Assembly (NCBI GenBank): GCA_018222835.1 | Contig: JAAEZN010000012.1 | Location: 1-52,926, forward strand | Length of the DNA: 52,926 nt | Direction of reading: 5' to 3' | Source of the DNA: Algicola sp. | GTDB lineage: Bacteria; Bacteroidota; Bacteroidia; Flavobacteriales; Flavobacteriaceae | Shown: in pieces, positions 28,573-31,016 of the stretch | Layout: each line of letters begins with the position of its first letter | How positions within the stretch are numbered: position 1 is the stretch's first letter | Notes under the pieces: generated by a model | Seen by the model: the letters and a program-made list of their open reading frames with translations, nothing else | The model's database searches: none | Told to the model about the DNA's origin: nothing | Translations under genes and position numbers: made by a program

Positions 28573-28784
28573 GACAGATGAATGTATTAATTTTTTTATC
28601 CATCCCTGTATTAGGAATCTTTTCGTATCTTATATACAGCTTTGATATACAGTGCATTATTGCATTACAAGAATCAGGGAAACTCCCTACTTTTCCCTCG
28701 TGCCAGTTGAACAATCAAAAGCTAATACTCCCAAACTTCACCATATTTAGATTTAGGTCAGGATTCAGAATTTCAATATAGTCG

Positions 28785-29861
28785 ATGGGAAATTACCCTA
28801 AATATTCACAAGTGTCCAACTCTGGTGAGGTTCCGGAGCTTTCTCGACAAATACGTCGGTTGATGGTAAAGATCAGTATAGGGGTAAGCCTTATCTTGAT
28901 TTTGGCCACTACGTTGTTAATGTTTCGATTTGGTATCGGAAGTGTTAATAATCAACTTACCCTAGTTCCCGATGATGTGTACCATATGGATTACAATGTG
29001 CACAACTTATCGACTTCCATAAAAAATGAAGAAATTAAGCTGGGCTTTGAGATTTTTAGAAATACTCCCTTGCATGTTGGGCCCATGCAAAAAGATTCTA
29101 CCAAAATATACGCAGGGAATAACCTTGCCTGTGCCAGTTGTCATATTGATGGAGGAACCAAGCCCTTTGCAGCGCCATTGATCGGTGTAGTAAAACGTTT
29201 TCCACAATTTAGAGGTCGCGAAAATAAAATGGGGACCATTGAAGAAAGAATCAATGGGTGTATGGAGCGAAGCATGAATGGTAGGATGATGCCGGAAGCA
29301 TCTCACGAAATGAAAGCTCTGATCGCCTATTTGGATTGGTTGGGCCGCGCAACCCCTCCGAGCGGAAAGATTGAGGGGCAGGGCTTCCTAAAGATTCAAA
29401 TTCCCGAGAGGGCAGTGGACCTTAAACATGGCGAGTCCGTTTACAAAGAACATTGTGTTATTTGTCATGGTCAGGATGGGCAAGGTCAACTATTGGCAGA
29501 GAACGACCAATATTTGTACCCTCCATTGTGGGGCAGCGATTCTTATAACAATGGTGCGGGCATGACCCGCGTAATCACTGCTGCCCAATTTATAAAAGGT
29601 AATATGCCTTTTGGCACTACATACGACAAACCTGTCCTCACAGATGAGCAAGCCTATGATGTGGCAGGATACATCAATCAGAAAGTAAGACCGACCAAGC
29701 CCAATAGAGAGGCAGACTTTCCAGATCTGGTCAAAAAGCCCGTATCTACTCCCTATGGCCCTTATGTGGACCCTTTCTCTCCCGAGCAGCACCAGTTAGG
29801 CCCGTTCCAGCCTATCATGGATTACTACCTTAAGGAACATCAACTTCGTAAAACCAAGTAA
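28785..29861 (+). CDS. Membrane-anchored TsdA-type dihaem cytochrome c (thiosulfate dehydrogenase/tetrathionate reductase family)
   Basis: TsdA enzymes interconvert thiosulfate and tetrathionate in the periplasm. The 358-residue protein has an N-terminal membrane anchor (about 27-48) instead of a cleaved signal. The family pattern follows: haem 1 CASCH (116-120), 'RFPQFRGRE', then 'EERINGCMERSMNG' with C159 at the position of the unusual cysteine haem ligand of TsdA, and 'EMKALIAYLDWL'. Haem 2 is CVICH (224-228), followed by 'PPLWGSDSYNNGAGM' and 'FIKGNMPFG' with M274 as likely distal ligand. As I recall, the Asn-Met pair (273-274) resembles Campylobacter jejuni TsdA, whereas Allochromatium TsdA has Lys-Met. 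It heads a three-gene block with two exported DsrE-like proteins. Substrate is inferred, not proven. Confidence 0.85.
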   Translation: MGNYPKYSQVSNSGEVPELSRQIRRLMVKISIGVSLILILATTLLMFRFGIGSVNNQLTLVPDDVYHMDYNVHNLSTSIKNEEIKLGFEIFRNTPLHVGPMQKDSTKIYAGNNLACASCHIDGGTKPFAAPLIGVVKRFPQFRGRENKMGTIEERINGCMERSMNGRMMPEASHEMKALIAYLDWLGRATPPSGKIEGQGFLKIQIPERAVDLKHGESVYKEHCVICHGQDGQGQLLAENDQYLYPPLWGSDSYNNGAGMTRVITAAQFIKGNMPFGTTYDKPVLTDEQAYDVAGYINQKVRPTKPNREADFPDLVKKPVSTPYGPYVDPFSPEQHQLGPFQPIMDYYLKEHQLRKTK

Positions 29862-29873
29862 ACACTACAAGCA

Positions 29874-30557
29874 ATGAAAACAACAAAAACAACATCAAGA
29901 CGAAATTTTATGGGAGCTATGATGTTGGGTGCCTCTGCATCCACATTAATGGCTTTTACCAATCCCGTATTAGCGGGTATGGCCGATTACACCGAGTCGG
30001 AGATGAACGATGCCGAGGCTTGGATAAAAACAATAAAAGGAAAACACAGGGTGGTTTACGATGGGTCTTATCCGCATCACGGATTTCCAATAATCTGGAA
30101 TTGGGCCTACTATTTGTCCAATAACGAAATGGGCTCTATGGATAATGAGATAACCGCGATGACAGTTCTGAGGCATGATGCCATTCCGTTTGCCTTTCAC
30201 TCAGATCTGTGGAAAAAGTATCCATTGGGCAATATGTTCCACGTTAAAAAAGCAGATGGAACCGTGTATGACCGCAATCCGTACTATGAGCCACAGGAAG
30301 GGGATTTTCCTATGCCGGTGATTCAGGGCATTAAGGATATGATTGGTCGTGGAGCCATGTTCTGTGTCTGTAATTTGGCCATGCAAGTTTATAGTGGCGC
30401 CGCAGCACAGCAATTAGGGAAAGATGCAACAGAAGTCTATGAGGAGTGGAAAGCCTCGGTATTGCCGGATATTCAGATTGTCCCTTCGGGTGTTTGGGCC
30501 TTGGGCAGAGCTCAGGAAGAAGGTTGTGGTTACATTTTTGCAGGAAACACAATTTGA
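29874..30557 (+). CDS. Tat-exported DsrE-like protein
   Basis: The 227-residue product carries a twin-arginine signal (S-R-R-N-F-M-G at about 8-14, hydrophobic stretch to about 28, cleavage near VLA-G). The mature part ends in a DsrE/F-like fold: 'GAMFCVCNLAMQVYSG' with C164 and C166, and 'IVPSGVWALGRAQEEGCGYIFAG' with C218, matching the family pattern of a buried cysteine followed by V-P-S-G and Q-x2-G-x-x-Y-I. DsrE-type proteins carry sulfane sulfur on a cysteine, usually in the cytoplasm; export by Tat, which moves folded and often cofactor-loaded proteins, is unusual. An inserted region (about 55-140) rich in His, Trp and Tyr is not part of the minimal fold. It lies 12 bases after the TsdA-type gene. 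Confidence 0.78.
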   Translation: MKTTKTTSRRNFMGAMMLGASASTLMAFTNPVLAGMADYTESEMNDAEAWIKTIKGKHRVVYDGSYPHHGFPIIWNWAYYLSNNEMGSMDNEITAMTVLRHDAIPFAFHSDLWKKYPLGNMFHVKKADGTVYDRNPYYEPQEGDFPMPVIQGIKDMIGRGAMFCVCNLAMQVYSGAAAQQLGKDATEVYEEWKASVLPDIQIVPSGVWALGRAQEEGCGYIFAGNTI

Positions 30558-30562
30558 TCAAG

Positions 30563-30973
30563 ATGAAAAATCTAGTTCTAATCTTAACACTGATGATGTC
30601 GGGCTTAGTGCTCGGACAAACAGAGCCCATCAAATTGGTATTTGATGTAACCAGCGACGATCCGGATGTACATCGTATGGCCGCAAAACATTTGCAGTTG
30701 ATGGCCGAAGCCTACCCGCAATCAGAATTTGAAATGGTAATTTACAGCGGGGCTTATAAAATGGTAGATAAAAAAGCATCCGTGGCAGGCGAAATGTTGT
30801 CGGCAGTAGTAAATAAAGATAATGTGGATGTCGTAATCTGTGAGCAAACCATGAAAAGACATAAAATGACCATAGGAGATCTTATTCCGGGCGTAGGTTC
30901 GGTGCCCGATGGTATTTATGAGATCGTGATGAAGCAAAAAGATGGCTGGGGCTATATTAAGGAAGCAAAATAG
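30563..30973 (+). CDS. Sec-exported DsrE-family protein
   Basis: I start at the ATG at 30563 (136 residues). It gives a clear signal peptide (about 1-18, cleavage near VLG-QTE) and lies 5 bases after the preceding stop. An upstream frame opening at 30446 lies inside the previous gene. The mature chain is a minimal DsrE fold: 'KLVFDVTSDDPDVHRMA', 'EFEMVIYSGAY', 'VDVVICEQTMKRHKM' with the single family cysteine C93, and 'LIPGVGSVPDGIYEIVMKQ' plus 'GWGYIKEA'. The order of elements matches the better-known cytoplasmic DsrE proteins, but this one is exported. It likely works with the Tat-exported DsrE-like protein and the dihaem cytochrome encoded just upstream. Confidence 0.85.
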   Translation: MKNLVLILTLMMSGLVLGQTEPIKLVFDVTSDDPDVHRMAAKHLQLMAEAYPQSEFEMVIYSGAYKMVDKKASVAGEMLSAVVNKDNVDVVICEQTMKRHKMTIGDLIPGVGSVPDGIYEIVMKQKDGWGYIKEAK

Positions 30974-31016
30974 GATTGATTTTCGGGATAAAAGTTTAAT
31001 CGATTAACTTTATGGC

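Follow-up and report, generated by a model that had tools for sequence, protein, structure and literature searches.

A tsdA-tat-dsrE gene block in Algicola sp. as a candidate periplasmic thiosulfate/tetrathionate module

What might two exported DsrE-like proteins do beside an anchored dihaem cytochrome? The question is raised by a block of three genes (tsdA, tat and dsrE) from Algicola sp. (Flavobacteriaceae; assembly GCA_018222835.1), within a stretch of 52,926 nucleotides (contig JAAEZN010000012.1, positions 1 to 52,926, forward strand; hereafter, the window). The three open reading frames (ORFs) lie on the + strand at 28785–29861, 29874–30557 and 30563–30973, with intergenic gaps of 12 and 5 bases, and the block is placed 212 bases downstream of ruvB and 43 bases upstream of queG. 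An earlier interpretation made from the letters alone (the sequence-only reading) had described this layout, including the coordinates, the gaps and all of the named residues, without error, and had proposed an extracytoplasmic relay of persulfide sulfur. The reading preferred here, with a probability of about one half, is that the block forms a periplasmic thiosulfate/tetrathionate module, in which the DsrE-fold proteins would handle Cys-bound thiosulfonate and not persulfide, and electrons would travel via the cytochrome. It is carried by a relationship that the sequence-only reading missed: the tat product (P0002) resembles a family of thiosulfate dehydrogenases (TSD). The features of the block, with P0001 and P0003 as the products of tsdA and dsrE (lengths in amino acids, aa), are as follows.

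28785..29861, + strand: tsdA-like gene, P0001, 358 aa, predicted N-terminally anchored dihaem cytochrome c (PDB and Pfam matches)
28863..28925, + strand: predicted hydrophobic membrane-anchor segment of P0001, approximately residues 27–47 (sequence and a simple hydropathy rule)
29130..29144, + strand: haem 1 motif CASCH of P0001, residues 116–120 (C116, C119 and H120 invariant)
29259..29261, + strand: C159 of P0001, predicted to ligate the active-site haem through its thiol, with R145, R155 and S163 nearby in the sequence (invariant, n = 50)
29454..29468, + strand: haem 2 motif CVICH of P0001, residues 224–228 (C224, C227 and H228 invariant)
29601..29606, + strand: N273-M274 of P0001, haem 2 axial site (invariant; Asn-Met likewise in Campylobacter jejuni TsdA)
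29874..30557, + strand: tat gene, P0002, 227 aa, predicted DsrE-fold protein exported by twin-arginine translocation (Tat), distant TSD relative (model fold, hhalign)
29874..29978, + strand: P0002 signal region with the twin arginines (SRRNF) and an approximate cleavage site (RRxF in 57/57)
30363..30371, + strand: C164-V-C166 of P0002 (C166 common to TSD; C164 absent from TSD)
30525..30527, + strand: C218 of P0002 (Cys in 57/57 and in 7/7 further Bacteroidota proteins; Phe in TSD)
30563..30973, + strand: dsrE gene, P0003, 136 aa, predicted Sec-exported DsrE protein of the MTH1491/ST0148 kind (Pfam, PDB, model)
30839..30841, + strand: C93 of P0003, sole cysteine and predicted sulfur-carrying residue (invariant, n = 52)

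P0002 and the TSD family

P0002 itself had no informative Pfam or NCBIfam match, and comparison with PDB sequences, using both the single sequence and a profile, gave no meaningful match. Its structure, predicted from an alignment of 57 sequences (pLDDT 84.9), resembled 2pd2 (Z = 13.3, root-mean-square deviation 1.6, VIA alignment), and since the 107 aligned residues are spread across model residues 58–223, about 60 extra residues would lie within the P0002 fold. Ten chains were recovered at Z = 13.4–8.3, with the next rows at Z = 5.5 and below, and these ten consisted of entries with DsrE/DsrF, DsrEFH, TusBCD or YchN titles, conserved proteins with no assigned function (2pd2, 1l1s and 2fb6), or a designed cage described in its PDB file as DsrE-like. 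Foldseek returned DsrE matches at E of approximately 1e-3, none under 0.001; Pfam DsrE was touched by a single member of the family (1/57, E = 0.25), and alignment of its profile with that of the P0003 family covered the last 32 columns only (76%, hhalign). The DsrE fold of P0002 is a prediction evident by fold comparison only, the assignment resting on the VIA alignments together with the way the elements of the model are ordered. An RRxF motif occurred in all 57 aligned sequences, P0002 included, as did C164, C166 and C218, and TatC is encoded in the same genome, which agrees with the Tat-signal DsrE-like protein with three cysteines that had first been described; the models of both small proteins, P0002 and P0003, were DsrE folds.

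Within the P0002 family, 47 of the 57 members matched NF052225 (‘thiosulfate dehydrogenase’) in an NCBIfam scan (E ≤ 0.01, best 2e-7), and on these matches the view of P0002 as a plain DsrE carrier was abandoned. A tblastn search of plasmids with an Algoriphagus homologue (L160) recovered a Novosphingobium protein (E = 8e-5) and three others (E = 0.2), and two of the proteobacterial plasmid proteins found by this route were full NF052225 members, serving as positive controls (L255, 374.6 bits; L254, 332.7 bits). The same plasmid search with P0002 and with one divergent relative gave nothing, leaving L160 the sole query of the three to reach TSD. The profile of the P0002 family aligned with that of 11 plasmid TSD at a probability of 95.4% (E = 2e-8, 163 columns, P0002 residues 52–221), compared to 0.1% for the control, one unrelated alignment (TsdA). 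The TSD profile had a weak match to the P0003-family DsrE profile (54.7%, 61 columns spanning the cysteine) and no meaningful match among PDB sequences, and Pfam did not assign any of the 11 scanned TSD to DsrE. Judged by these alignments, P0002 is related, though distantly, to the TSD family over most of the mature protein.

The joint alignment singled out one cysteine: C166 was Cys in all of the P0002 family (57/57), the further Bacteroidota proteins (7/7) and TSD (11/11), compared to 57/57, 6/7 and 0/11 for C164 and 57/57, 7/7 and 0/11 (Phe) for C218. Residues W113, Y116, G160, P204 and Y220 were identical across the three groups, and twin arginines were found in 9/9 aligned TSD with the N-terminus present. 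The use of two export routes by the two small proteins had been called odd; the twin arginines of P0002 also occur in TSD, so the two routes have an ordinary explanation and need no special cause. P0002 resembles TSD in twin-arginine export, the 163 alignable columns and the invariant cysteine equivalent to C166, and differs from it in scoring far under the family cut-off, in length (227 versus ~260 aa) and in the additional invariant C164 and C218.

One TSD, encoded by AFE_0042 of Acidithiobacillus ferrooxidans, is a thiosulfate dehydrogenase of ~25 kDa (PMC6335251; this and the other articles cited are drawn on in excerpt), listed as a Tat-signal protein next to a periplasmic solute-binding protein and doxDA (PMC2754497). 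NF052225 is apparently the AFE_0042 family, because a Gluconobacter locus has the same gene order (Tat protein, substrate-binding protein, DoxD). An early purified thiosulfate dehydrogenase produced tetrathionate with no cofactor required, and the excerpted review regards the structure and mechanism of TSD as still to be clarified (PMC6335251). The TSD gene of A. ferrooxidans is linked to DoxDA, whereas that for P0002 is linked to TsdA and DsrE, and a similar association exists on proteobacterial plasmids. From 24 TSD plasmid records, 11 loci were fetched, three of which (L257, L258 and L259) had been picked for a TsdA match in the same record; TsdA was located ≤4 kb from TSD in 6/11 loci and in 3/8 of those not picked for TsdA, as determined by local hmmsearch with E-values relating to a small sequence set. 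One of the other five loci had DoxD (Gluconobacter) and four had neither TsdA nor DoxD within 3–4 kb flanks. In Bosea, a cluster of an FAD/NAD oxidoreductase, a long cytochrome that includes a TsdA part, TSD, a solute-binding protein and TlpA adjoined a divergent YeeE gene and Blh. In Paraburkholderia fungorum, one cluster contained a DsrE protein of 41.4 bits in Pfam, in whose annotated form a clear signal peptide was lacking, together with TSD, a TsdA and a further cytochrome.

The cytochrome, its DsrE partner and their linkage

P0001 matched TsdA among PDB sequences (4wqc, E = 8.4e-50, residues 109–304) and a 526-residue cytochrome c (5lo9, E = 2.1e-45, residues 82–339). It scored 42.6 bits against PF21342, the SoxA/TsdA domain of Pfam (cut-off 27), and remained under the cut-off of the SoxA equivalog (TIGR04484; 47.1 bits, cut-off 110). 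Invariant positions in 50 aligned TsdA, P0001 included, were the key residues of both haem motifs, C159, R145, R155, S163, R262 and N273-M274. Matched by offset on the 4wqc alignment, R145, R155, C159, S163 and R262 correspond to Arg109, Arg119, Cys123, Ser127 and Arg224 of the Allochromatium vinosum enzyme (AvTsdA), in which Cys123 was probed by chemical means and the remaining four by exchange for alanine, with R109A, R119A and S127A called activity-affected (PMC4423706). N273-M274 has its counterpart in Asn254-Met255 of the Campylobacter jejuni enzyme (CjTsdA; PMC5146829). Based on similarity over both haem domains, the haem ligands and the active-site Arg/Arg/Ser/Arg set, P0001 belongs to the TsdA type, as had been suspected. 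It would have in common with both enzymes the dihaem c architecture, the Cys-ligated active haem and the Arg/Arg/Ser set, and with that of C. jejuni the Asn-Met at the haem 2 site. P0001 differs from known TsdA in its predicted membrane anchor and adjoining DsrE-fold genes, and it is flanked in the window by ruvB and the Tat gene, with no second cytochrome, in comparison to one relative (L068) in which a small cytochrome c is encoded by a gene of its own. A simple hydropathy rule gave 49/50 aligned TsdA a transmembrane-like N-terminus, and six of the 50 had a lipobox-like motif as well. The SoxAX-SoxYZ system shares the principle of a Cys-ligated haem that conjugates thiosulfate, which a protein carrier then receives (PMC4423706); P0001 is unlike SoxA in its score below the SoxA cut-off and its retention of the TsdA-specific serine (S163). 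A search of the genome for SoxY returned no match, with a control likewise without a match anywhere.

The second small protein, P0003, was above the Pfam DsrE cut-off (29.5 bits, cut-off 22.7) and matched 2pd2 (E = 1.3e-8) and 1l1s by sequence. Its predicted structure (pLDDT 93.1) reached Z = 19.0 to both 1l1s and 2pd2, so that cut-off and modelled fold together place it in the DsrE superfamily. C93 is the only cysteine of P0003 and is invariant in 52 aligned sequences, and simple in-house rules gave 52/52, P0003 included, a hydrophobic N-terminus and placed a likely Sec cleavage before Q19, matching the Sec-signal DsrE-like protein of the sequence-only reading. The fold common to P0002 and P0003 would be that of the MTH1491/ST0148 branch of the DsrE/DsrF superfamily (1l1s, 2pd2), from which both differ in their export signals and P0002 also in its ~60 extra residues; the titles of both PDB entries name no function.

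Across 80 loci (the best 80 of 97 relatives of the Tat gene in a scan of genome contigs, many of which share ancestry), mostly from the Flavobacteriaceae, plus Algoriphagus-type genomes and one metagenome-assembled genome labelled Chlorobiota, tsdA was upstream and dsrE downstream of tat in 65 (≤400 bases, same strand). The remaining loci had dsrE only (n = 7), tsdA only (n = 4) or neither (n = 4), with some contigs ending near the block. For the 11 loci without an adjacent tsdA, the gene was present elsewhere in all nine genomes searched (40–48% identity), the other two genomes being outside the search. In a sample of 395 genomes from the phylum, own genome included, searched with E-value limits that differed among the three genes (1e-3, 1e-30 and 1e-10), the Tat gene was present in 8, tsdA in 44 and dsrE in 20. 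All eight genomes with the Tat gene possessed tsdA; with the own genome excluded and kinship ignored, tsdA was present in 7/7 Tat-positive versus 36/387 Tat-negative genomes (Fisher p = 1.2e-7) and in 16/19 dsrE-positive versus 27/375 dsrE-negative genomes (Fisher p = 1.8e-14). By distances worked out by hand from match coordinates, the Tat gene and tsdA were ≤1 kb apart in 5/7 other Tat-positive genomes (unlinked in G206 and G155), and dsrE was ≤2 kb from tsdA in 12/16 other genomes holding both. Gene order varied, with that of the window in G174, tat-tsdA in G178 and G447, dsrE-tat-tsdA in G065 and a convergent arrangement in G090. The linkage of tsdA, tat and dsrE is well beyond chance and, as had been anticipated, conserved outside of this genome, and rearranged linkage is hard to explain without shared function.

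Variants of the block were also observed. A second block type, consisting of tsdA-tat followed by a TauE-like permease with no dsrE, occurred elsewhere in two genomes of the genus (L061, 2567–5208; L062, 2449–5077), and two tandem dsrE genes followed tsdA-tat in L162 (4208–5160) and L171 (6697–7601). In three genomes, tsdA was located away from the Tat gene and followed by a protein of ~448 aa (L244, 1173–2516; L245, 1325–2671; L246, 1436–2782); of two such proteins scanned, one was weakly OprD-porin-like (below cut-off) and one had no match. In a genome from another family of the order (G054; L060, 3639–7986), tsdA adjoined dsrE, with a YeeE-type transport gene and, judged by eye, rhodanese-like ORFs in the vicinity; the Tat gene was looked for in this genome and not found.

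Proposed thiosulfonate handling and competing explanations

Families, residues, linkage and co-occurrence are observed, as are the export signals and predicted folds; we infer what P0002 and P0003 bind, how groups pass among the three proteins and which way the flow runs. The anchored TsdA would interconvert thiosulfate and tetrathionate, with C159 bearing the thiosulfonate, and exchange electrons, in either direction, with the c-type pool, which in the sequence-only reading would also serve Act/Cox/Nos. P0002 would bind thiosulfate or tetrathionate at C166 as a Cys-S-thiosulfonate, with C164 probably as the resolving partner, and would use the TsdA cytochrome as its electron outlet. P0003 would be a second DsrE carrier, holding or passing on a thiosulfonyl or sulfane group at C93. 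A precedent is provided by DsrE3A of Metallosphaera cuprina, which reacted with tetrathionate to give a Cys-S-thiosulfonate, did not react with polysulfide or glutathione persulfide, and is able to accept thiosulfate from tetrathionate on cysteine and to hand it over (PMC4175335). The likeness to DsrE3A/TusA lies in a DsrE-family protein reacting with tetrathionate on cysteine; the DsrE3A genes flank an Hdr-like complex, unlike this block, and 2qs7, the structure named in the same excerpted article, matches less closely (Z = 14.2 to P0003, 8.9 to P0002).

A further, tentative step would make TSD and the dihaem TsdA the halves of one machine, in which a DsrE-fold Cys protein forms and transfers the thiosulfonate and TsdA is the dedicated electron acceptor. 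If true, this would answer where TSD sends its electrons, and the Bacteroidota block with its extra DsrE carrier would be the best-conserved two-component thiosulfate dehydrogenase. The relationship of P0002 to TSD gives that family a candidate fold (predicted DsrE), the aligned cysteine as a candidate for catalysis and, as a candidate redox partner, a cytochrome of known chemistry. Many marine Bacteroidota gain a defined candidate locus for thiosulfate/tetrathionate chemistry, and the block offers a route to testing how TSD-type enzymes work. Among titles and the starts of abstracts, mostly from non-subscription literature, no description was found of a tsdA-tat-dsrE block or of a DsrE fold for TSD.

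Several observations weigh against the thiosulfonate module. P0002 itself was not among the NF052225 matches and the best of ten proteins scored 26.2 bits (cut-off 300), so that P0002 is a distant relative and not an equivalog, and it may have another role. TSD of A. ferrooxidans is reported to reduce neither ubiquinone nor horse cytochrome c (PMC6335251), and the latter speaks against simple hand-over to any cytochrome. The retained TsdA-specific serine (S163) suggests free thiosulfate, and not a protein carrier, as the second substrate, and DsrE2B, from the same cluster as DsrE3A, was unreactive with everything tested (PMC4175335). Further, dsrE was missing, at the limit used, from 2/8 sampled genomes with the Tat gene (G447 and G155), 36/44 sampled tsdA genomes were without the Tat gene, and four genomes of the genus have tsdA without tat and dsrE at the ruvB-queG junction; TsdA therefore does not need the Tat protein.

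Among the alternatives, the persulfide relay of the sequence-only reading is doubtful. Under this explanation both DsrE-fold proteins carry periplasmic sulfane sulfur, with the cytochrome as redox partner, in line with the DsrE fold predicted for each, an invariant cysteine at the position of the one in DsrE, and the rhodanese or MBL-rhodanese genes near some relatives’ blocks and on a contig of the own genome (C80). P0002 is, however, closer to TSD (95.4%, 163 columns) than to the P0003 family (76%, 32 columns), and DsrE3A was reactive toward tetrathionate and toward neither polysulfide nor glutathione persulfide (PMC4175335), which weakens the relay as it was stated. The TsdA-type cytochrome and the two exported DsrE-fold proteins stood, and persulfide as the cargo was not supported in the form proposed. 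None of the three results named beforehand as refuting (a cytochrome unlike TsdA, small proteins of another fold, no linkage in other genomes) was obtained.

It is somewhat less probable still that P0002 is an independent thiosulfate dehydrogenase parallel to TsdA with its own electron acceptor, the genes being together only through a common role in thiosulfate oxidation. The homology of P0002 to TSD would fit, as would the occurrence of TSD without TsdA in the fetched plasmid stretches (DoxD in Gluconobacter; neither in 4/11) and the failure of TSD to reduce ubiquinone or horse cytochrome c; yet among Bacteroidota genomes in which both were sought, the Tat gene was always accompanied by tsdA (8/8 in the phylum sample and 9/9 genomes with unlinked genes), and two full thiosulfate dehydrogenases per operon would seem redundant. 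A reductive direction appears improbable; here TsdA would reduce tetrathionate, either to respire or to detoxify it, and the role of the DsrE proteins would be to capture or sense this compound and to shield thiols in the periplasm. The invariant Asn-Met at haem 2 is that of the tetrathionate-biased CjTsdA, but changing Asn254 of that enzyme to Lys gave no shift toward oxidation (PMC5146829), so this Asn does not fix direction, and the neighbours in several relatives resemble those of sulfide or sulfur oxidation, with MBL-rhodanese in four loci tested and, at one relative’s locus, DsrC-like, DsrE2 and pyridine-nucleotide-disulfide oxidoreductase genes. A chance neighbourhood or single-genus peculiarity, to which the single genus of the 13/59 near relatives with P0002 and the variable ruvB-queG site might point, is ruled out by the 80 loci across many genera (65 in full order) and by the same families occurring together in other gene orders in further families.

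The ruvB-queG junction and the wider sulfur setting

The Tat gene was present in 13 of 59 near-relative genomes, own included, all from one genus. The ruvB-queG junction was examined for 30 of the 36 genus members searched, own included, and contained tsdA with or without its partners (n = 16), was empty (n = 7, with 16 bases between the matched parts), held other DNA (n = 6) or met a contig end (n = 1). The other DNA consisted of alike P450-type genes in four genomes (one Pfam-tested), TetR with cupin in one and a PIN-like pair in one (both by eye). The junction (window 28573–31016; relatives L076, L085, L090–L095, L099 and L101–L104) is a variable site in the genus, bearing out the suspected insertion between two housekeeping genes. 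In a tree for which the bootstrap had not settled, one of the four tsdA-only genomes grouped with a relative that carries the cassette, though its branch was not fully supported (90/73), and the remaining three made up a clade (100/96) beside the cassette group. In one relative (G001; L073, 3964–4649), the Tat gene was broken into two frames while tsdA and dsrE remained open, which may reflect a sequencing error or a pseudogene.

The sulfur setting that had been proposed for the block was borne out in relatives. MBL-rhodanese (persulfide-dioxygenase-like) proteins were confirmed near four blocks, and YeeE-type, SulP, DsrC-like and DsrE2 genes occurred near one or two, with the DsrC-like and DsrE2 genes together at one locus (L156). 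The own genome carried, on another contig (C80), an MBL-rhodanese gene accompanied by SulP and two rhodanese-like ORFs, and had no match in a profile search for PF13686 (DsrE_2). A TauE/SafE-type cluster gene was downstream of the Tat gene in 22/80 loci (one representative tested, 138.4 bits). Upstream regulators were common at the blocks, of either the SCO4226-AraC or the hybrid two-component kind; the former, SCO4226-like and AraC-type DNA-binding regulators (two tested), were located upstream at L145 (709–1812), L128 (1239–2363) and others, with some in tandem copies.

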